Shown here: piece by piece, positions 7,910 to 60,280 of the stretch | Layout of the letters: every line of letters starts with the position of its first letter | How positions within the stretch are numbered: position 1 is the stretch's first letter | Source: Mesotoga sp. BH458_6_3_2_1 | Lineage (GTDB): Bacteria > Thermotogota > Thermotogae > Petrotogales > Kosmotogaceae | DNA length: 64,000 bases | Assembly (NCBI RefSeq): GCF_003664995.1 | Contig: NZ_JFHL01000029.1 | Location: forward strand, 310,001 to 374,000 | Direction: 5' to 3' | Notes under the pieces: model-generated | Told to the model about the DNA's origin: nothing | The model's database searches: none | The model's input: only the letters and a program-made list of their open reading frames with translations | Translations under genes and position numbers: made by a program

Positions 7910-8449
7910 TTACCTTACCGATTTCATTCCCTCTTCAACTGCCTGAATGTTCAGATCTAGGAGAGATGCTTTTCGACCGGTTAACTTCTTCTCCAGAGCC
8001 TTGCGTACTCCTTCCATGGTCACAGTACCAGTCTTTTCGAGATATGCGCCCAAAACCACCATGTTGGCAACCTTGAGATTCCCCAGCTTCTCTGCAATCG
8101 AATTTGCATCTATCTTGACAACGGAAATATCATTTCTAGTAGTTTCTCTGTCAACAACAGAAGTGTTTATGACCATCACACCACTGGGTTGAATCTCTCT
8201 CTCGAATTTTATCAGAGAAGGTATGTTCATTACAATCAGTTCGTTCGGTGCATTTGTAATCGGTGACCCAATAGGCTCATCGCTCACGACTACTGTGCAG
8301 TTGGCAGTTCCTCCCCGCATTTCCGGTCCGTATGAGGGAAGCCAGGTAGTGTGCTTGTTGTCAAACATTCCAGCCGTTGCTAGGATCTGTCCGATCAACA
8401 TGACTCCCTGTCCACCAAATCCCGCAACTACTAAGAGATGCTCACTCAT
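7910..8449 (-). CDS. 2-oxoacid:ferredoxin oxidoreductase, gamma subunit
   Basis: 179 residues, the usual size of the separate gamma chain in four-subunit enzymes. The N-terminal motif AGFGGQGV and the [16 protein letters not shown] region are diagnostic. The gamma domain contributes to CoA binding and subunit contacts in the oxidative decarboxylation of a 2-oxoacid to acyl-CoA with ferredoxin as acceptor. Its start overlaps the beta-subunit stop by four bases. It is the last gene of the operon, followed by a strong terminator. The family includes pyruvate, 2-oxoisovalerate, 2-oxoglutarate and indolepyruvate enzymes; operon context favours branched-chain 2-oxoacids. Confidence 0.93.
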
Positions 8450-9198
8450 TTGATATCACCGACCTTGTCGACAAATACCCCAATCGGATACTCTTTCTTC
8501 ATGTTTTCATTTAGCCAGTTGATTGATTCCACTGGGTTGAGCCCCCAGTTTGTCGGACAGGTCGAAAGAACCTCAACCAATGAAAAGCCCAGCCCTTTTT
8601 GCTGTGCGACAAAGGCCTTCTTTATTGAAGCCTTTGCCTTCCTGACTTCCTGGGGAGAACTCACAGCCACTCTTTCCAGATAGACGATTCCGGCGGTTTC
8701 CTTCAACAGTTCTGAAACGTGAATCGGGAACCCTTCTGTCTCCGCTTTTCTCCCATACGGAGAAGTAGTGGTTTTCATTCCGAGCAAGGTGGTTGGTGCC
8801 ATCTGGCCGCCTGTCATACCGTAGATCGCATTGTTGACAAAGATCGTAGTGATCTTCTCGCCTCTGTTTGCGGCGTGAATGATTTCGGCAGTTCCAATGG
8901 CGGCAAGATCGCCGTCACCTTGATATGTGAATACTATCCTGTCTGGCATTGCTCTCTTCATTCCCGTGGCGACGGCCGGCGCTCTTCCATGAGGTGCAAC
9001 AGTTCCGTCAACATCAAAGAATTCATACGCAAAGACCGAACATCCAACGGGAGCAACCATTAGAGTCTTACCCTGAATCTCCAGTTCGTCTATTACTTCT
9101 GCTACAAGTCTATGAATAATACCGTGGTGACAGCCTGGACAGTATGAGAATTCATTTTTCGCAAGTGATTTAGGTCTCTTGTAAGTTGCTTGTGACAT
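8446..9198 (-). CDS. 2-oxoacid:ferredoxin oxidoreductase, beta subunit (thiamine diphosphate-binding)
   Basis: 250 residues. The N-terminal YCPGCHHG motif, the GDGD at the thiamine/Mg site and the downstream [11 protein letters not shown] are the conserved TPP-binding elements of KorB/VorA-type beta chains. This subunit carries the cofactor that decarboxylates the 2-oxoacid. It has no extra 4Fe-4S cysteines like those of single-chain pyruvate enzymes, so the clusters come from the separate ferredoxin-like subunit at 10277. The start follows the alpha stop by nine bases, and the end overlaps the gamma start. Confidence 0.94.
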
Positions 9199-9207
9199 TT
9201 AATCACC

Positions 9208-10266
9208 TCATCCTATAAGTCTGACGAGTTCTCTTAGGACTTCGTCTGGTGTTGGAACCATTCCTCCGGTTCTCCCGTAGAAATGAACAGGTAACGCTCC
9301 TTCGACCGAGAGGCGGACATCTTCCACCATCTGGCCGGTCGACATTTCCACATCGAGACAGAACTTCATTCCCTTTGAGGCGGCCTTCAGTTCGGCATAT
9401 GGAAATGGCCACAGGGATATTGGTCTGAACAGCCCTACTTTGATTCCCTGTTTCCTTGCCATTTTCACTACGCTGCCAAGAATTCTACCCATCGTACCGT
9501 ATCCTACAAGAACATACTCAGCATCTTCAAGGTCACTTGTCTCAAATCGGACTTCCTTTGCTTTTATCTCTTCATAGCCCTTGTGTAAAACGATATTCAT
9601 CTCTTCGAGGTTCACCGGATCGATGTCGAAAGAAGTTACTTTGTGAGGTTCACGGCCCTCCGTTCCTCTCAGGGCCCAGCCCGCGTGATCATTGATCCCC
9701 TCGAGTTGGACGAAATCGGGAAAGACAACGGGTTCCATCATCTGTCCAAGCATTCCGTCTGCGAGCATCATTACCGGCACTCTGTAAGTGTCAGCAAGAT
9801 TGAAGGCGCTTTCCATGAGATCAACCGCTTCCTGAATGCTTCCTGGAGCTAGAACGATCATGTGATAATCTCCATGCCCTCCGCCTTTTGTCGACTGGAA
9901 GTAGTCGCTCTGTGCAGGCTGGATATCTCCAAGTCCAGGTCCACCTCTAACTACATTCACGAATACCGTAGGAAGCCTTGCACCTGCTATGTAAGAGACT
10001 CCTTCTTGCATTAGGCTGAAACCCGGACTAGACGTCGAAGTCATCACTCTGTGACCCGTGCACGCGGCCCCGTAAACCATGTTAACCGCGGCCACCTCGC
10101 TCTCTGACTGAAGAAAGACGCCGCTTATCTCCGGCATTCTTCTCGCCATATATTCAGTGAATTCTGACTGAGGAGTAATGGGATAACCAAAATAAAGTCT
10201 GCAGCCGGCCCTTACAGCAGCCTCCGCCATTGCTTCATTTCCCTTAACCATCATCTTTTCGGCCAT
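9208..10266 (-). CDS. 2-oxoacid:ferredoxin oxidoreductase, alpha subunit
   Basis: 352 residues. The YPITPQSE motif near residue 30 is the signature substrate-binding segment of KorA/VorB alpha chains, and the C-terminal part carries the transketolase C-like fold (LVGYGTMGRI). Alpha and beta together form the active site. At 352 residues it has the length of VOR/KOR alpha chains, not of the pyruvate enzyme fused to gamma. The gene starts ten bases after the ferredoxin-subunit stop. Context (aminotransferase, phosphate butyryltransferase, butyrate kinases) points to 2-oxoisovalerate, 2-oxoisocaproate and similar acids, but 2-oxoglutarate cannot be excluded by sequence alone. Confidence 0.94.
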   Translation of the reverse strand: MAEKMMVKGNEAMAEAAVRAGCRLYFGYPITPQSEFTEYMARRMPEISGVFLQSESEVAAVNMVYGAACTGHRVMTSTSSPGFSLMQEGVSYIAGARLPTVFVNVVRGGPGLGDIQPAQSDYFQSTKGGGHGDYHMIVLAPGSIQEAVDLMESAFNLADTYRVPVMMLADGMLGQMMEPVVFPDFVQLEGINDHAGWALRGTEGREPHKVTSFDIDPVNLEEMNIVLHKGYEEIKAKEVRFETSDLEDAEYVLVGYGTMGRILGSVVKMARKQGIKVGLFRPISLWPFPYAELKAASKGMKFCLDVEMSTGQMVEDVRLSVEGALPVHFYGRTGGMVPTPDEVLRELVRLIG

Positions 10267-10276
10267 GGTCTCCCTC

Positions 10277-10501
10277 CTATACCTCTACCGTTTCTTTGTA
10301 GACGGTTATGGCTGTATCAGGACACATCATGTAGCAAAAGCCGCATCCGATACAGTTGTCGGGATCATGTTGTTGGGCGGGACGATAGCCCTTGCTGTTG
10401 AACTTGTCCGAGAAGCTAAGCACTTTCTTCGGGCAGAAGTTGATACATAGACCGCAGCCTTTGCACCGCTCTTCGTCGATTTTCACGAAGTTTCTACTCA
10501 T
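10277..10501 (-). CDS. 2-oxoacid:ferredoxin oxidoreductase, delta subunit (2x4Fe-4S ferredoxin)
   Basis: 74 residues carrying two classical CxxCxxCxxxCP motifs: the first uses Cys13, 16, 19 and 23, the second starts at NCIGCGFC. Such a small ferredoxin beside alpha/beta/gamma genes is the delta chain that passes electrons from the TPP intermediate to free ferredoxin. Its start overlaps the end of the P-loop ATPase gene by eight bases. Reduced ferredoxin made here is a natural substrate for the Rnf complex encoded at 55-60 kb (inference). Confidence 0.95.
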   Translation of the reverse strand: MSRNFVKIDEERCKGCGLCINFCPKKVLSFSDKFNSKGYRPAQQHDPDNCIGCGFCYMMCPDTAITVYKETVEV

Positions 10502-50791: not shown

Positions 50792-51724
50792 TCACTTCCT
50801 AAGGCTTTCTACTGCACTGGCTATAATACCTACTGACCTATAGAGTCCCTCAATCTCTTTTTCTGAAAGACCGATTCTCAAAACTCTTTCTACGCCATTT
50901 CGACCAAGAATTGTGGGAACACTGAAAGGTACGTCTCTCAATCCTTCAAATTCCTCGTGAACCGATGACACGGTGAGAACAGAGCGCTGATTGTTCAGAA
51001 TAGTTGAAAGTACTTTAGACACAGCCAGTCCGATTCCGTAGTAAGTAGAACCTTTCTTCTCAATTATTCTATAGGCAGCATTCTTGGTCTGTTCAAACAA
51101 CTTCTCGAAGAGACTGCCACTACAATTTCTATTGCAGCTGCTGCAGAAATCACTAAGCGGAATGCCTGCAATATCTGCGTTCGACCAGTTGACTATCTCG
51201 CTATCGCCGTGCTCACCCATTACATATGCATGAACGTTTCTGGGGTCAAGCTCGCAGTGATCGGCTATACTCTGTCTGAGCCTTGCCGTATCCAGAGTAG
51301 TCCCCGAACCTATTACCCTGTTTCTCGGGAAGCCTGACGTCTTCCACGCAACCCATGTGAGCACGTCCACCGGATTTGACACCACAAGGATAACAGGCTC
51401 CTTGCTGAATGAAAGAGATTCTTTAACCGCATTTTCGACAATCTCAGAATTGTCCCTCAATAGCTGCAGGCGACTCTCGCCCTCCTTTTGAGGCCTTCCG
51501 GCGGTAATAACCACAACATCGGAATCTGCCGACACATCGTAATTTCCACCGGAGATTGTCACCGGTCTCACATACGCGTTTCCATGACTTAGGTCCATAG
51601 CCTGACCCACCGCAAGTTCTGTATTTATATCAACAAGCGCTATCTCTCTTGCGATGCCTTTTATCATTGTCGCATATGCAATTGACGAACCTACCATTCC
51701 GGCTCCAATTATTGTGACTTTCAT
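50792..51724 (-). CDS. ldh: L-lactate dehydrogenase
   Basis: 310 residues. [12 protein letters not shown] is the NAD-binding loop, [15 protein letters not shown] the substrate loop with Gln at the position that marks lactate over malate enzymes, and GEHGDSE the catalytic His. It interconverts pyruvate and lactate with NADH. The start overlaps the ispG stop. Position at the end of an rnf/isoprenoid operon is unusual but the distance leaves no room for another promoter between. Confidence 0.95.
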
Positions 51725-52764
51725 CTATCACCTCCCGACAAGAGTTCATCAAACCAATGTCGGAATCTAGCTTCGAGGTTCTCGCCTCCCACTTTCTCCA
51801 CGATCTCGCCTCTGACGAATATGACTCCGCCCGAGGCCGTTCCAGCGATCCCAATGTCTGCCTCACTACCCTCGCCAATTCCGTTAACTACACAGCCCAT
51901 TACCGCAACCGAAAGGTCGGCATCTACATTTCCTACCCAGTTCTTGACTTTTCTGGCAAGAGCTTCAACATCTATTTCAGTTCTTGCACAGGTTGGACAG
52001 GAGATAACATTGACACCCCTTCTCAGCCCCAGCGACTTGAGAACGCTCAATCCAACCTCTATTTCCTGAACCGGGTCACCCGACATCGATACTCTTATGG
52101 TGTCTCCAATGCCTTTAAGCAAGAGTGTGCCAATACCAATAGAAGACTTCACGGTTGAATCAAGCCCAAAACCCGCCTCTGTAACACCAAGGTGAAGCGG
52201 ATAGTCGGTCTTCTCGTACAGGTATTCATTCGCACTCACAGTCTCTGATACCGATGAAGACTTAAGAGAAATCACAATGTCCTCGAATCCTGCGCCCTCG
52301 AGGATTCTTACCTGAGCAAGAGCGCTTTCTGCAAGAGCGACTGGTCTATCATATGCACTGAAATTTCTATCAAGGGAACCGGAATTCGCACCGACTCTGA
52401 TCGGAACACCATATTCTCGAGCAACTTTGACCGTCTCTATGACTTTCCATTCCTGTCCGATGTTCCCTGGGTTTATCCGCACTTTCGCAGCACCGTTTCT
52501 TATCGATTCAATGGCAAGCCTGTGATCAAAGTGAATGTCTGCAATCACAGGTATTCTGCTCAATGAAGAGATTTCTTTAAGAGCTTCCGCGGATTCCTGA
52601 TCGGGAACTGAGACCCTGACAAGGTCGCAACCGGCATTCGTAAGCTTCTGAATCTGGTCTACAGTGGCAGAGATGTTTGAAGTCTTGGTGTTTGTCATTG
52701 ATTGAACCGTGACTGGATTTCCTCCGCCAATCAGCACGAAGCCGACTTGAACTGCCTTGCTCAT
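51721..52764 (-). CDS. ispG: 4-hydroxy-3-methylbut-2-en-1-yl diphosphate synthase
   Basis: 347 residues from the ATG at 52764, which overlaps the rseP stop in [17 protein letters not shown] opens the protein, and the three cluster cysteines appear in [11 protein letters not shown] and MGCVVNG, followed by [14 protein letters not shown]. It reduces methylerythritol cyclodiphosphate using a 4Fe-4S cluster and reduced ferredoxin or flavodoxin, the penultimate step of the non-mevalonate isoprenoid route. Bacterial type without the plant insert. Confidence 0.96.
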
Positions 52765-54272
52765 AGCCACCTACCTATGTCAATGAATGTTATGTAAATC
52801 ATGAAACCCATCAGTATCATAAACCCAATTACGTTTATCAAGCCTTCAATCTTCGGATCTAGTCTCCTTCTGGTTATCATCTCGAGTAATGCCAAAAGCA
52901 TCCTGCCCCCGTCAAGTGCTGGAAAGGGTATCAGATTTATCACTCCAAGGTTCAATGAAATGAATCCAGCAAAAAAGAGTACAATTCTCAGACCTAGACT
53001 CACAGCTTGATCTACTATTGTCACTAGTCCTATTGGGCCGGTAAACTCGTTGATATTTGCCCCACCAGTGAAGAGACTACCGACAACCTTAACCATAGTG
53101 AACAGCAGGTTGTTTGCCCACTGAATACCCAGACCTACCGCCTCGAAAGCGCTGTCGGGATACCAATAGTCGCTACCCTGAGCGAAAGCCCCTGCTTCAC
53201 CGACGAGGGCAATCATCTCGTTCTTGCTCACAGTTAATTCAATTGTCTGACCTTCGCGTTCTATGGAAACAACGAATTCCTCTGGAAAGCCATGCTTTGC
53301 CAAGGTAGTTTCCTTGCCGGTTAACTGAATGAGCAGCTCGTTTGATTTCAAGGAGAGTAGCTGACTCATGGTCGTTAGATCATAACTTGTATCGGTCTTC
53401 ATCCCATTGACCGCTAGCAGGAGATCGCCCTCCCTGAACTGACCAAAATCGTTTGCCAATAAGGGTTTGAAATTTGCATAGTATATTCCCATCGCGTAGC
53501 GTTCCTCTGTTGGCGAATAAGTCAGGAGCGTGCCAGCGAGGGTCGTTCCATCAGAAAAACCAAGTCTTACAGTGCTTTCGGGTGAAAGCACACCGGCATA
53601 TCCAACGTAGTCTCCGTTAAAGGCTGCGCCGTTGATAGAGGACAGGACTTCACCGGGTTCACCCGTAGTGTTGCCGATGACAATGAAGGCCTCCTGGGGA
53701 AGCAATTCGGGCAGAAGAGTGACTTCAACTTCTTTACCATCCCTAAGCACAACAAGATCTATCCTATCGCCTGCTGCAACAGCTTCACTGAGCCTGGTGT
53801 TGTCTATTAAAGTCTTTCCATTTACATTGACTATTCTGTCACCGGGCATCATTCCGGATATCGCAGCGGGCGAGCCGGGCTCGACTTTGTCGATTCTTAC
53901 TTCCTGAAAACCCCAAACCACGGCAACGAGGGAGAGCAACAAAAAACCCAGAAGTAAAGAGAAAGCCGGGCCTGAAAAATAGATGATGAATCGCTGCCAG
54001 GCCGGTTTATTCTGAATCTGCTCATTAGCGGGAACGGAAGAATCTATGTTGTCGAGATCCTCTCCAGCAGGTCTAACATAGCCGCCAATTGGGAATGCAT
54101 TTATTCTAAAAGTAGTATTCTTTCCCTTCTTCGACCACAGTTTGGGACCCATTCCAATAGCAAATTCAATCACTCTCACTCCGAAAAGCCTGGAAAATAG
54201 GTAATGCCCCAATTCATGCACCACAACTATCCCCGTCAGAATGAGAAGAAAATATATTATTGACAATACCAT
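52761..54272 (-). CDS. rseP: site-2-type intramembrane metalloprotease
   Basis: 503 residues, longer than the usual ~340-450. HELGH at 19-23 binds zinc with the later acid in [15 protein letters not shown] domain starts near [23 protein letters not shown], and the ~210 residues before the last helices are longer than in most relatives, probably with a second PDZ-like domain. It cuts membrane-spanning anti-sigma factors or remnant signal peptides. The dxr-rseP-ispG order is common in bacteria. Confidence 0.94.
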
Positions 54273-55393
54273 CTATTCACCTCTTCTTTTGCCCGTCTTC
54301 TTGCAAAGCCGTCAATCTCGATTATTTGACTGTAATCGGTCGGGTTTTGATCATCGGTACCTGCGACCGTCCTTTCAATTATATTGTAAATGCTCCCAAA
54401 AGGTATCCTACCCTTCACGAAAGCATCGACTGCTATTTCATCTGCTGCATTGTAAGCGATCTGCTTGCTGACAGTTCCACAAATCTCTCTCGCAAGGGTG
54501 AGAGCGGGAAATCTATCTTGCTGCAGTTCCTCCAGAACAATTGGAATGCCGACTATCCTCTCTTCTCCTAAAAGATCATGGCGCGCAGGATAAGTCAGAG
54601 AATACGAAATCGGAATTCGCATGTCCGGGCGACCCACATGGAGTTTCACAACGCCATCATTGTACACAACACCGGCATGAACAAAGCTGTTTCTACATAT
54701 GTAAGTATCTATTTCACTCGACTCGAAGCCAAAGAGATATTTCGCTTCAATGACTTCAAGTCCTTTGTTTACCATTGAAGCGCTATCAACGGTTATCCTG
54801 TTTCCCATCGACCAAACAGGGTGCTTCATGACATCTTCAGGGCTTGCCTGGTGAATCTTTTCTTTCGGCCAATCTCGTAGGGCACCGCCAGATGCGGTTA
54901 TTATGATTCTCTCTGGACGAACAGTACCGTCAAGAAGCTGAAAAAGGCCGCTGTGCTCCGAGTCGACAGGGATCAGTTCAACTTCTTCTCTAGCACATTT
55001 TTTAAGAAGCAGGTTTCCTCCACACACGATAGACTCTTTGTTCGCAAGACATAGTCTGCTGCTGACTTCAGCCGCCCTAAGGCTGAATCTCAGTCCTGCC
55101 GCTCCGCTAACGGCAAGCAGCACATAATCGGGTCGTGACTTCTCGAGCATTGTTTCGATTCCCTCTTCGCCGTGGAAAAATGTTGTTCCTGGAAAGGAAT
55201 CGACTAGATTTTCGTTTCTTTCAAGAGCGGCGGCGAATTTGGGATGGTATTTCGAAAGTTGCTTAGAGAAAGAGGAGAAATTGTGGCCACAGGAAATGGC
55301 CACAATTTCGATTTGTTCAATCTTATCTACTATTTCGAGTGTCTGTGATCCTATAGATCCAGTAGAACCAAGAACAGCCAACCGCTTTTTCAT
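54257..55393 (-). CDS. dxr: 1-deoxy-D-xylulose 5-phosphate reductoisomerase
   Basis: 378 residues. LGSTGSIGSQTLEIV is the NADPH loop, LANKESIVCGG the conserved linker, and PVDSEHSGLFQ with SGGALRDWP the substrate/metal site. It makes methylerythritol phosphate, the committed step of isoprenoid synthesis. The 16-base overlap with rseP and the four-base overlap with rnfB tie it to the same transcript. Confidence 0.96.
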   Translation of the reverse strand: MKKRLAVLGSTGSIGSQTLEIVDKIEQIEIVAISCGHNFSSFSKQLSKYHPKFAAALERNENLVDSFPGTTFFHGEEGIETMLEKSRPDYVLLAVSGAAGLRFSLRAAEVSSRLCLANKESIVCGGNLLLKKCAREEVELIPVDSEHSGLFQLLDGTVRPERIIITASGGALRDWPKEKIHQASPEDVMKHPVWSMGNRITVDSASMVNKGLEVIEAKYLFGFESSEIDTYICRNSFVHAGVVYNDGVVKLHVGRPDMRIPISYSLTYPARHDLLGEERIVGIPIVLEELQQDRFPALTLAREICGTVSKQIAYNAADEIAVDAFVKGRIPFGSIYNIIERTVAGTDDQNPTDYSQIIEIDGFARRRAKEEVNRWYCQ

Positions 55394-56082
55394 GACTCAA
55401 ACTTCTTCTTTATCTCAGCTGGTTCTCCAGAAGTATCTTCAATTATCTTTTGAATCTCTGATTGAGAAAGTTCCATAATCTTTGCGACCTTTTCGGGCAC
55501 GTTCTGTCTCTTTCCCGGTACGCATTTATCTGCGTTCTCTTCCTTGCCGGCAACCTTCAGGGCAAAGGCAGCACATCCTGGAGAACCACATACACCACAG
55601 TTTATATTGGGCAGAACGGCAAAGACCACAGTTGCTCTGGGATTCTCCTTGAGCTTGTCCCTGTAGCTTTCGATTTCTTCTTGGGTTGGCCTTTTGGGCT
55701 TGGGCGGTGCTGCTTTCACTTCCCTTCCGGATGTGGCGATCAGTTTTTCCAGTGTCTTTTCCGCATCTTCCTCTGTCTCTTCAAAGAGAGCGGTGAGTTT
55801 GTCGACGTCCGTCTCCATTATTAGCTTCAGTTTTTCGGGAACGCCGGACCGCTTGCCGGGAACACACCCGTCCAGCGGGGCTTTTTCTTCGGCAATAGCC
55901 TTTGCAAAAGCCGAGCAACCGGGGAAACCACAGGCGCCACAGTTAACGCCTGGTAAAGAAGCTTCGATGAGCGTGATTCTTGGATCCTTCTTGACTGCAA
56001 ACTTCGCGGAGGCGAAAGCTAGAAAGACACCTGCTCCTATGCCCAGTACTGCCATAAACAGAACTGAATAGACTACTGTCAT
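55390..56082 (-). CDS. rnfB: Rnf complex subunit B, atypical: two Fes (4Fe-4S) domains and no ferredoxin domains
   Basis: 230 residues from the ATG at 56082 (GAGG eight bases upstream). One N-terminal helix anchors it in the membrane. Then two copies of the same cysteine pattern follow: NCGACGFPGC...GC (Cys48, 51, 56 and 73) and NCGVCGSPGC...KC (Cys162, 165, 170 and 187), each with a PGKR tail. No CxxCxxCxxxCP ferredoxin motif is present, whereas usual RnfB has one Fes domain plus several ferredoxin clusters. It follows rnfA by ten bases. RnfB is the presumed ferredoxin-docking subunit. Confidence 0.88.
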   Translation of the reverse strand: MTVVYSVLFMAVLGIGAGVFLAFASAKFAVKKDPRITLIEASLPGVNCGACGFPGCSAFAKAIAEEKAPLDGCVPGKRSGVPEKLKLIMETDVDKLTALFEETEEDAEKTLEKLIATSGREVKAAPPKPKRPTQEEIESYRDKLKENPRATVVFAVLPNINCGVCGSPGCAAFALKVAGKEENADKCVPGKRQNVPEKVAKIMELSQSEIQKIIEDTSGEPAEIKKKFES

Positions 56083-56092
56083 ACACATCGCC

Positions 56093-56674
56093 TCACAGTT
56101 TTACTAGGCCTTGAAAACCCATGAAGGCCATCGAGAGTAAACCGGCAGTAATCAGTGCAATGGCAGTTCCTCTGAAAGGTTCGGGAATTTCGGAAAGTTC
56201 CATCCTCTCTCTAATCGTTGAAAAAAGAATGAGGGCCAGAGCAAAGCCAAGTCCAGCACCTGCAGAATTCACTATCGTCTCGAGCAGCGTGTAGTTCTGC
56301 TGAACATTGAGTAGTGCAAGACCGAGAATCGCACAATTTGTCGTGATGAGGGGGAGAAATATTCCAAGTGCATCGTAAAGCGCGGGACTTGTCTTCTTCA
56401 GAAAGATCTCGACAAACTGCACCAGTGTTGCAATAATTAGAATGAACACGATAGTTCTCAAAAAGGGAATGCTGAGCATATCGAGAAGAATGTTCAGAAG
56501 CCATGTGATAATCGAGGCCATGATCATGACGAATGTAACGGCTATGCTCATTCCTACCGCAGTATCAATCTTCTTGGAGACACCTAGGAAAGGACAGATT
56601 CCGAGAAATCTCGAAAGCACGAAATTGTTTATAAGAATCGCTGAAAGAAATATAAAAACCAGTCTAGTAGCCAT
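56093..56674 (-). CDS. rnfA: Rnf complex subunit A
   Basis: 193 residues with six membrane helices. The opening LINNFVLSRFLGICPFLG carries the Cys that shares the membrane 2Fe-2S cluster with RnfE. Related to NqrE. It helps move electrons across the membrane in the ion-pumping ferredoxin:NAD oxidoreductase. Placed between rnfE (13 bases) and rnfB. Confidence 0.95.
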   Translation of the reverse strand: MATRLVFIFLSAILINNFVLSRFLGICPFLGVSKKIDTAVGMSIAVTFVMIMASIITWLLNILLDMLSIPFLRTIVFILIIATLVQFVEIFLKKTSPALYDALGIFLPLITTNCAILGLALLNVQQNYTLLETIVNSAGAGLGFALALILFSTIRERMELSEIPEPFRGTAIALITAGLLSMAFMGFQGLVKL

Positions 56675-56687
56675 CAGTCACCCCTCC

Positions 56688-57302
56688 TCATTTTGCTGCC
56701 TTTTTAGCTTTGCTGCGCCTTATTCCCAGATAATTGAAGAAAGCGGCGAGCATGCCCAGAGCAATGAATGCACCTGGAGGGAGTATCATAGCGAACATTT
56801 TAACGTCGGAAAGATGGTAATTGAAAATAGATCCGTTTCCGAGAAATTCTCTTACAGAACCGAGCAACACTAGGGAAGCAGTAAAACCCAACCCCATGCC
56901 AAGACCATCCAAGAAAGATCTTAGGACATTGTTCTTGGAAGCATAGGCCTCTGCTCTTCCAAGGATTATGCAGTTCACAACAATAAGTGGAATGAATAGG
57001 CCCAGAGTCTTCCATAGATCGTAAACGAAACCGTGCATCAACATGTCAATCATTGTGACAAAGGAAGCGATTATGACAATATATGCGGGAATTCTTATCT
57101 TGTCGGGAATGAGCTTCCTGACAAGGGAGATCGTGATGTTCGACATTGCCAGAACCGCAGTCGTTGCGAGTCCCATCCCCAATCCATTCTCGGCGCTTGT
57201 TGTTGTAGCAAGAGTAGGACACATGCCAAGAACCTGAATGAAGATCGGGTTCTGCTTCAAGATTCCATTTGTGAGAACCGAGAACTTCGATTCAGCCATC
57301 AT
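56688..57302 (-). CDS. rnfE: Rnf complex subunit E
   Basis: 204 residues with six helices, homologous to RnfA. The conserved NPIFIQVLGMCPTLATT holds the matching cluster cysteine. The C-terminus is basic and cytoplasmic. The start overlaps the rnfG stop. Confidence 0.95.
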   Translation of the reverse strand: MMAESKFSVLTNGILKQNPIFIQVLGMCPTLATTTSAENGLGMGLATTAVLAMSNITISLVRKLIPDKIRIPAYIVIIASFVTMIDMLMHGFVYDLWKTLGLFIPLIVVNCIILGRAEAYASKNNVLRSFLDGLGMGLGFTASLVLLGSVREFLGNGSIFNYHLSDVKMFAMILPPGAFIALGMLAAFFNYLGIRRSKAKKAAK

Positions 57303-58021
57303 CTAACACCTGCCTTTTCCAGGAACTCTGAGATAGCATTGAGCGAGAATGCAACGGCTCTCGGAGTTATCGTTGCCCCGGTCATCACATCGCTTACGGT
57401 GACTATCCCGTCTTCCCTCTTTCTAATGTCTATTTGATCTCCGATAGGGGTTACTCCTGCATCTTTGTCAACTTTTATGCTCTTCTGGAGTCCTTGACTG
57501 TCGATCGGATAAAACCTCTTCTGTACACTGTCGTTTGCGATGTTGGCTCCGAGGCCCGGAGTCTCTTGTGAGTATTCAAGAACCTTAATCCCATTCAGAT
57601 GTACTCCATCCGAGTCCTTTACGAAGGCCGCCATCGACTTGACATCGCCGCCGTAACCGACTGCTATGCCGATAGCCACAAAAACCTCGCTGCCATCATC
57701 TTTCAAGAACTTGTATGCAGGGCTTTCTACTCTTCCCTGAGAGTCGACAGCCTGATAGATTATTCCTTCTGAAGCGGTGAATCCCTCTGGGAACCATTCA
57801 AACTCTGCGAGTTCGCTTGCGGTTTCGGGGATACTCTCTTCAGCGATCAGAAGTTCTCCCGAATCCGCATCGGTAAGAACATTTCGAATAGCGGCGAGTT
57901 TTGCGCCAAGTTCCGCGTTTGCGATCGGCTCTTCAACAATGGTGTAGACCACAGAAAGGACTAAAGCCGCGATTATAGTAATAACCATCAGAGTAATGCC
58001 GGTCTTTAAGTAATCACGCAT
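57299..58021 (-). CDS. rnfG: Rnf complex subunit G (covalent FMN)
   Basis: 240 residues with one N-terminal helix and an extracytoplasmic flavin domain. The flavinylation motif TGAT (Thr217) in DVMTGATITPRAV carries FMN by a phosphodiester bond. The start overlaps rnfD by eight bases. Order C-D-G-E-A-B is standard for the complex. Confidence 0.95.
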   Translation of the reverse strand: MRDYLKTGITLMVITIIAALVLSVVYTIVEEPIANAELGAKLAAIRNVLTDADSGELLIAEESIPETASELAEFEWFPEGFTASEGIIYQAVDSQGRVESPAYKFLKDDGSEVFVAIGIAVGYGGDVKSMAAFVKDSDGVHLNGIKVLEYSQETPGLGANIANDSVQKRFYPIDSQGLQKSIKVDKDAGVTPIGDQIDIRKREDGIVTVSDVMTGATITPRAVAFSLNAISEFLEKAGVR

Positions 58022-58964
58022 TGCTCTTCACCTTCTTTGGTTTCCCGAATATCTTGGGCTTGGTTCCCATATCTATGAGCGGCACGAATGCGTTCATGAT
58101 AAGAATCGCAAATGATACGCCTTCCGGATAGCCACCAAACAATCTAATTATCATGGTAACAACCCCACAGCCAACTCCAAAGACCAGATGCCCCTTGATC
58201 GACATTGGACTAGTTACCATGTCAGTAGCCATGAATAGAGCTCCCAACATCAGACCGCCTCCAAAAATGTGGTACAGCGGCGAGCCAAAACCGGGATTTG
58301 CGGCGTAGAAGATTGCCGCCATTATTGCAACAGTTCCTACGTATGCAATAGGTATGAAGGGTGAAACTCTTCTTCTCAGTAGCAACCATCCAAAACCGAG
58401 AAGAAGCAACAGCGCGCTCACCTCTCCTATGGAGCCGGGAATAGTTCCCAGGAACATCTCTTGCAAAGAGAAGACTCTTGGTGCTCCCTGTTTAAGAATA
58501 GCCATTGGAGTGGCGGTGGTCTGCATGTCAAAAGGACTGAACCATGTTGTCATTTGAACGGGGAACGAGATTAGAAGAAAGACCCTTCCGACTAGTGCGG
58601 GATTGAAGAAATTCTTTCCTAGACCACCAAAGACCGACTTCGCAATTACAATTGCGACGAAGATACCTATCAGGGCCTGCCACCAAACAACAGCAACTGA
58701 AAGATTCAGTGCAAGCAACAGTCCTGTGACCGAACCGCTAAGGTCAGGTTTGAAGGTCTTCTTGTGCCTCACGAATCTCATTACAAAGAAGTCGAGAGCC
58801 TCCGCGCCGACTGTACAGACAAGTATCAGTATGAGTGCTTTCAAGCCGAACGAGACAACGGCCCAAACTGCTGCAGGAGAAAGTGCGATCAGAACATCCA
58901 GCATTATCTTCCTAACATTATCTTCAGATCGCAAGTGAGGTGCTGCCATCATTGACAGTTTCAC
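58014..58964 (-). CDS. rnfD: Rnf complex subunit D (membrane flavoprotein)
   Basis: 316 residues with about ten helices. The TATP segment (150-153) in MQTTATPMAIL is the expected FMN-threonine site of RnfD/NqrB. The core helices form part of the ion channel. The start overlaps the rnfC stop. Confidence 0.95.
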   Translation of the reverse strand: MKLSMMAAPHLRSEDNVRKIMLDVLIALSPAAVWAVVSFGLKALILILVCTVGAEALDFFVMRFVRHKKTFKPDLSGSVTGLLLALNLSVAVVWWQALIGIFVAIVIAKSVFGGLGKNFFNPALVGRVFLLISFPVQMTTWFSPFDMQTTATPMAILKQGAPRVFSLQEMFLGTIPGSIGEVSALLLLLGFGWLLLRRRVSPFIPIAYVGTVAIMAAIFYAANPGFGSPLYHIFGGGLMLGALFMATDMVTSPMSIKGHLVFGVGCGVVTMIIRLFGGYPEGVSFAILIMNAFVPLIDMGTKPKIFGKPKKVKSNA

Positions 58965-60280
58965 TTCTTCGCACCTCCCTTCAGACTTCGATAGACCCTT
59001 TTATGCAGTTTGAAATTCTTGACCAGATCGATATTGGCCGGACAGGCAAAGGAACAACTCCCACATTCTATGCAGTCCATCAGGCCATTTTCCACTTGTG
59101 CATCGTACAACCTATTTGTTCCGTAGAGGTTTAGTAGAAAAGGTTGGAGATTCATGGGACAGACGAATGTACATTTGCCGCATCTGATACAAGGGAACTC
59201 TTCAAGAGGTTCGCTCTTAAGCAACAGAGTGATTCCAGAAGTGCCTTTCACAGTGGGAACGTCTGTCTTCGGAACCGTGATTCCCATCATGGGGCCACCG
59301 AATAGGGCTCTCTCAACTGTTTCTTGGGCTCCTCCCCCATGACCAATTAGCTCTTCTGCCATGACTCCGATTCTTGAGACGACGTTTAGGGGTTTTCTAA
59401 TACCCTCTCCGGTTATCGTAACTCCTCTTTCGACGAGAGGATGTCCAAGCTCAACGGCTTCATAGATAGCATAGGCAGTGCCTATGTTATCAACCACGAC
59501 TCCCACATCCAAAGGAAGCCCGCCCGAAGGAACCTTTCGCTTCGTCAGGGCATAGATGAGTTGCTTCTCAGCACCCTGTGGATACTTGGTTTTCAGTGTC
59601 TTCACCTGTATCGATGTCGACTTAGTGGCCTCTTTCATCCTTTCTATGGCCTTTGGCTTATTATCTTCAATGCCAATAATCGCATCTTTCACTTTGAGAG
59701 CTCTCATAATCGCAAGAACCCCTCTGACCAATCCCTCGGAACGTTCAAGCATGTACCTGTAATCTATCGTCAGATAAGGTTCACACTCTGCTCCATTAAT
59801 AACGAGAAGATCAATCTTCTTTTCCTTAGGCGGGGAAAGCTTGACGCTTGTTGGAAACATTGCTCCACCAAGCCCAACGATGCCCGCATCCTTTATCCTT
59901 TGGACGATTTCTTCCGGTTCAAACTGATCGTAGGGTTTAGCAGGTTGGAGTAACTCCCATTCATCGTCACCGGATCTCTCAATAACTATCGCGTCGTCCG
60001 GCTTCGAAAGCGTTGGATGGAAATATTTCGCGATTTCCTTGACTTCGCCTGTCAGAGGAGAATGAAGATTCGCAGAAATAAAACCTCCGGACTCAGCTAT
60101 CAGTTGACCGGTCTTGACCCTGTCACCAACATCAACAACAGGTTTGGCTGGAATACCGGCGTGGTTCGCAAGAAATACATAAACCCTTTCTGGAAGTGGA
60201 AGAACGCTCAGATGAGAATCCTGAGACAGTTCCTTTTTCTCCGGCGGGTGCACCCCTCCTCTGAAGGTAGGCAACCTCAT
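58961..60280 (-). CDS. rnfC: Rnf complex subunit C (NADH-binding, 2x4Fe-4S)
   Basis: 439 residues. FRGGVHPPEKKEL opens the protein; the NAD/FMN region spans about 125-215 (GLGGAMFPTSVKL). Two 4Fe-4S motifs, CIRCGKCTFVCP and CIECGSCSFACP, lie at the C-terminus. It reduces NAD with electrons from the membrane part. First gene of the operon; AGAGGTGAT lies before the ATG. A clear promoter was not found in the 110 bases upstream. Confidence 0.96.
   Translation of the reverse strand: MRLPTFRGGVHPPEKKELSQDSHLSVLPLPERVYVFLANHAGIPAKPVVDVGDRVKTGQLIAESGGFISANLHSPLTGEVKEIAKYFHPTLSKPDDAIVIERSGDDEWELLQPAKPYDQFEPEEIVQRIKDAGIVGLGGAMFPTSVKLSPPKEKKIDLLVINGAECEPYLTIDYRYMLERSEGLVRGVLAIMRALKVKDAIIGIEDNKPKAIERMKEATKSTSIQVKTLKTKYPQGAEKQLIYALTKRKVPSGGLPLDVGVVVDNIGTAYAIYEAVELGHPLVERGVTITGEGIRKPLNVVSRIGVMAEELIGHGGGAQETVERALFGGPMMGITVPKTDVPTVKGTSGITLLLKSEPLEEFPCIRCGKCTFVCPMNLQPFLLNLYGTNRLYDAQVENGLMDCIECGSCSFACPANIDLVKNFKLHKRVYRSLKGGAKK

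Follow-up and report, generated by a model that had tools for sequence, protein, structure and literature searches.

Two Fes domains and no ferredoxin domains in the RnfB of Mesotoga and other Kosmotogaceae

The rnf operon and the layout of its RnfB

The window analysed here, a 64,000-nucleotide stretch of a Mesotoga sp. BH458_6_3_2_1 contig, contains an rnfCDGEAB operon for a respiratory complex that pumps sodium. The last gene, rnfB, codes for the subunit through which electrons enter and encodes two Fes domains (D1 and D2) (Table 1). RnfB and the rnfCDGEA subunits all score above the cut-offs of their own families, and the gene order is conserved across Kosmotogaceae. Membership of RnfB in TIGR01944 is indicated by its score above the curated cut-off, by a transmembrane helix followed by a Fes domain, and by the presence of rnfCDGEA alongside. 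An alternative upstream ATG at 56088 would extend the protein by two residues to 232 aa; the start at 56082 is the better one, and with it all eight cysteines of RnfB fall in the two Fes sets, as C2 is present only with the first ATG. RnfC carries two 4Fe-4S motifs (Fer4 families, residues 363-418), which belong to the NAD side of the complex and are distinct from the clusters missing from RnfB.

Table 1. Genes of the rnfCDGEAB operon and parts of RnfB, in window positions.
Feature	Position	Strand	Basis
rnfC	58961..60280	minus	TIGR01945, 555.3 bits
rnfD	58014..58964	minus	TIGR01946, 337.2 bits
rnfG	57299..58021	minus	TIGR01947, 115.1 bits
rnfE	56688..57302	minus	TIGR01948, 283.3 bits
rnfA	56093..56674	minus	TIGR01943, 280.4 bits
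rnfB	55390..56082	minus	230 aa, terminal gene of rnfCDGEAB; TIGR01944, 110.5 bits (cut-off 68.7)
RnfB N-terminal transmembrane helix, residues 3-30	55999..56082	minus	model helix H3-30; aligned with RnfB structures
RnfB first Fes domain (D1), residues 45-77 (C50, C53, C58, C75)	55858..55956	minus	PF04060; aligned with 9eri_B
RnfB D1 three-helix tail, residues 78-120	55729..55857	minus	model; homologous to Petrotogaceae RnfB tail
RnfB proline- and lysine-rich linker, residues 121-135	55684..55728	minus	model and composition
RnfB second Fes domain (D2), residues 159-191 (C164, C167, C172, C189)	55516..55614	minus	PF04060; model
RnfB D2 three-helix tail, residues 192-232	55393..55515	minus	homologous to Petrotogaceae RnfB tail

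The initial annotation had described duplicated Fes domains and no ferredoxin-type clusters in this RnfB, and both observations were borne out. Pfam assigned two PF04060 stretches to the protein (whole-protein E 4e-25), each with a complete set of four cysteines, and found no Fer4 family match; the sequence likewise contains no CxxCxxCxxxC motif. In a whole-genome search with PF04060, only the D1 and D2 sites matched (56.8 and 44.7 bits, cut-off 23), and since these sole two matches both exceed the cut-off, the double Fes is not a product of chance. D2 bears the motif CGxCGxPGCAAFA and has the Fes fold; modelled alone, it reached a pLDDT of 92, and both tails were modelled as three short helices. 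Judged by its alignment with the RnfBs of 7zc6, 8ahx and 9eri, D1 is the counterpart of the membrane-docking B8 domain of Acetobacterium woodii RnfB.

A frameshift or hidden C-terminal ferredoxin domain, considered as a source of the missing clusters, was ruled out: the rnfB frame is intact and matches in length in 16 genomes, and the rnfB stop and the dxr start share four bases (55390-55393), so that no C-terminal part can have been cut off or hidden. Neither does a nearby gene restore the clusters. There is no ferredoxin gene within the rnf operon, and the "operon ferredoxin subunit" to which the initial annotation referred does not exist; the window's nearest ferredoxin-like open reading frame (10277-10501) is part of a 2-oxoacid:ferredoxin oxidoreductase-like operon (7910-10501, named by eye). 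This operon includes a 74-aa two-cluster ferredoxin-like subunit and adjoins butyrate kinase- and phosphotransacetylase-like genes, also named by eye.

Two further observations concern the genomic setting. In Kosmotogaceae loci, dxr-rseP follows directly after rnfCDGEAB (51721-60280 in the window), followed by ispG where the stretch extends far enough; the loci compared from Petrotogaceae and from other Thermotogota showed no such linkage. A second cluster of the Rnf/Nqr type, nqrBCDEF with NqrF, lies in the same genome (L153:3976-7884, contig C2); its nqrD and nqrF score above cut-off. A search of the whole genome yielded no nqrA, with RnfC as the sole match. A 2014 survey reported no nqr in Thermotogae (PMC4014512), and an extra RnfA/NqrE pair is present in many Thermotogota.

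Distribution of single- and double-Fes RnfBs

Of 103 Thermotogota genomes searched in six frames, 99 contained PF04060. Both Fes domains occurred in one frame of 231-240 codons in 16 Kosmotogaceae genomes, which are all those in which rnfB was found; the remaining member of the family (G009, 78% complete) gave no PF04060 match. In all 83 other Thermotogota with PF04060, RnfB was encoded by a short frame with one Fes, and a profile built on the double form aligned there through its first half only. Among the genomes surveyed, the second Fes in RnfB is thus restricted to Kosmotogaceae, and ferredoxin domains are absent from RnfB throughout the phylum. The possibility raised in the initial annotation, that all Thermotogae RnfBs share this form, is therefore true of the missing ferredoxin domains and untrue of the second Fes.

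Loss of the ferredoxin domains is ordinary in Thermotogota and has been published for Thermotoga maritima, whose RnfB of 10.56 kDa has one predicted cluster and no ferredoxin clusters (PMC7414866). The Mesotoga protein resembles it in combining a transmembrane helix with Fes, in lacking ferredoxin clusters, in its rnfCDGEAB order and in having an external ferredoxin donor (PMC7414866), whereas T. maritima RnfB has one Fes and no three-helix tail. Petrotogaceae RnfBs (L017-L030) share the transmembrane helix, the Fes, the same three-helix tail and the lack of a ferredoxin domain, but they contain one Fes-tail unit where Mesotoga RnfB contains two. The polyferredoxin RnfBs of A. woodii, C. tetanomorphum and A. 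vinelandii (9eri, 7zc6, 8ahx) share the transmembrane helix and the membrane-side Fes (B8); on the C-terminal side they add two to seven more 4Fe-4S clusters in ferredoxin folds, where Mesotoga has a second Fes instead. Because it has neither a Fer4 family nor a CxxCxxCxxxC motif, we did not file the protein with the polyferredoxin type of A. woodii, nor does it fall in the single-Fes class of T. maritima, as it lacks a ferredoxin domain yet has two Fes domains.

We found no double-Fes RnfB outside Kosmotogaceae among the best 80 loci from 84,980 species, in which the only examples (L033 and L034) were both from that family. In a non-exhaustive sample of 190 distant genomes, ~74 of them with a match, none of the matches listed spanned D1 and D2. 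The double-Fes RnfB is a lineage-specific variant of a known subunit and, as far as we searched, the duplication is undescribed; no paper naming both RnfB and Mesotoga was found in the open-licence literature.

The reduced form also extends beyond Thermotogota: short Fes-only RnfBs lacking ferredoxin clusters were observed in Acholeplasmatales, in a Clostridiales MAG and in Spirochaetes/Brevinematales (L042, L044, L046, L053, L058, L079, L100). A Fes-only rnfB is detached from rnfCDGEA in Thermosipho-type genomes and in one genus of Petrotogaceae (L136:6820-7194; L141:6698-6997; L124, L127, L140, L036). By eye, its neighbours place it downstream of feoAB in one case, and in another it precedes dprA. 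An orphan RnfB without Rnf in Thermosipho/Fervidobacterium-type genomes was considered and rejected, as rnfA sits elsewhere in the genome. Separately, a permease-like membrane protein of ~245-260 aa with a lone C-terminal Fes domain is conserved in Thermotogota (L129:81-815; L130, L143, L144, L163).

Origin and divergence of D2

Petrotogaceae RnfB consists of a transmembrane helix, a Fes and a tail of ~37 residues that is absent from the other Thermotogota compared, and Kosmotogaceae RnfB carries a Petrotogaceae-like tail behind each Fes. A profile of the Petrotogaceae tail scored the D2 tails at 9.6-43 bits, compared to a top score of 15.4 bits among 3172 shuffled decoys that were scored, and 13 of the 16 D2 tails scored above every decoy. 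In a tree of full units, D2 formed one clade (100/100) within Petrotogales-type units, on a long stem branch (0.98). A tree of the core, from a short alignment of 52 columns, also separated D2 and every other Rnf unit from the non-Rnf domains (100/100), but grouping D2 with non-Rnf Fes domains of the corrinoid iron-sulfur protein (CFeSP) type on the same columns was not rejected (AU p of 0.39). Since the core alone leaves kinship with CFeSP-type domains open, the case for duplication rests on the tail and the full-unit tree. The AU value would suit an acquisition of D2 by fusion, with either CFeSP or the permease-linked FeS family as its source, an origin that we regard as highly improbable: the best core tree unites D2 with the Rnf units, and D2 is followed by a tail homologous to that of Petrotogaceae RnfB, with no such tail seen in the non-Rnf proteins compared. 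On these sequence comparisons, D2 originated by internal tandem duplication of the soluble unit of Fes and three-helix tail that Petrotogaceae has once, and the duplication most likely arose once, in the ancestor of Kosmotogaceae.

The second copy has been both preserved and altered. Its four cysteines are invariant in all 16 genomes, which span five genera, and between close relatives D2 shows dN of ~0.05 versus dS of ~0.73 (0.02 versus 0.37 for D1); by these substitution rates, purifying selection on D2 is strong. Within a single protein, D1 and D2 share 26-46% identity. CxxCG is followed by F or Y in every one of the 62 first Fes domains compared, D1 included, and in 57 of 57 ferredoxin-containing RnfBs, a set that partly overlaps the 62; D2 instead has S, A, H or E at this position in 15 of 16 sequences, and AAFA after the third cysteine in 16 of 16. 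The loss of the aromatic residue and the gain of AAFA suggest that D2 probably does not dock on RnfA/E in the manner of D1. D2 seems to have been freed from the RnfA/E interface and to be bound by another one.

Candidate electron paths

To our knowledge, external ferredoxin is the electron source of all Rnf complexes. The initial annotation had concluded that electron entry into this Rnf must differ; the domain that would relay electrons from a docked ferredoxin is indeed missing, but the donor is a general one and the loss extends across the phylum. Direct docking of ferredoxin, also proposed there, is plausible and not special to this gene, as the purified Fes-only Rnf of T. maritima oxidises free clostridial ferredoxin (PMC7414866).

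The charge of the domains bears on where ferredoxin could dock. Mean net charge in Kosmotogaceae is +2.4 for D2 versus +1.7 for D1; D2 and the linker are net positive on average, and in Mesotoga-type sequences the soluble part of RnfB as a whole is close to neutral. Outside Thermotogota, the Fes cores of Fes-only RnfBs average +1.1 compared to -2.0 in ferredoxin-containing RnfBs (p=0.0004, a comparison that ignores kinship and thermal adaptation), as expected for a Fes part in direct contact with an acidic ferredoxin. The genome encodes a Thermotoga-type ferredoxin of ~61 aa with a net charge of about -7; its gene shares a contig with rnfB, at a distance of ~131 kb.

We give about even chances to a reading in which D2, carried on a flexible arm, serves as a relay with one cluster and replaces the lost ferredoxin domains, with electrons passing from ferredoxin to D2, then to D1 and on to RnfA/E. 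The acidic free ferredoxin would dock on D2 or its linker and reduce D2; D2, predicted to bear a cluster, would hand the electron to D1; and D1, like the B8 domain, would swing to the [2Fe-2S] cluster of RnfA/E. In A. woodii, B8 (RnfB residues 30-100) inserts between RnfA and RnfE and reduces this membrane cluster (PMC11889175). We propose, somewhat more tentatively, that Kosmotogaceae may have replaced a lost polyferredoxin arm by copying the docking Fes into a ferredoxin receiver, yielding a two-cluster Fes-Fes relay. Electron entry through such a relay, if true, would possibly be a design undescribed for Rnf. Because the T. maritima enzyme works without D2, D2 is dispensable for ferredoxin oxidation as such.

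That same T. maritima enzyme, functioning with one cluster, would also suit a D2 that is a structural or stability element and whose cluster, if any, plays no part in electron transfer; with four ligands invariant over five genera and a low dN/dS, this is very unlikely. Both domains might alternatively act as interchangeable heads of one arm, each taking electrons from ferredoxin and docking on RnfA/E, giving faster turnover with no chain between them. D1 and D2 do share the same unit and fold, a flexible linker and all ligands, but the strong divergence of D2 (its long stem branch and low identity to D1) and its lack of the aromatic residue present in every docking Fes examined make such an arrangement quite improbable.

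The likeness of D2 to CFeSP raises a further alternative. The D2 model and the Fes domain of CFeSP superpose at 0.7 Å across 35-38 columns, with a Z of 7-9 for 54-57 residues, and the top four Foldseek matches of the whole RnfB model were CFeSP Fes domains, with no E below 0.001. The CFeSP N-terminal Fes domain (4djd, 4c1n, 2ycl, 9fzy) shares the Fes fold and a similar CxxCGxPxCxAFA motif, but it is part of a different protein and pathway and has neither the transmembrane helix nor the Petrotogales tail. For D2 alone, the match to CFeSP gamma (4e-10) was almost as good as that to RnfB (9e-12), and this, together with the invariant AAFA, is consistent with D2 being a docking module for a non-ferredoxin partner, an oxidoreductase or hydrogenase served by its cluster, with the CFeSP-like motif as the new interface. 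We consider this unlikely, as Kosmotogaceae rnf operons have gained no partner gene. The NQR-like second complex was rejected as the partner, because Kosmotoga-type genomes without it keep D2.

RnfB arms in the Rnf structures so far are large, mobile and poorly resolved. The Fes-only RnfBs of Thermotogota and the Fes-Fes RnfBs of Kosmotogaceae represent natural minimal versions of this arm, and comparing one-Fes, two-Fes and polyferredoxin RnfBs would reveal what the arm is for. If D2 does act as a relay, its duplication would illustrate how cheaply a relay can be added to an old pump.
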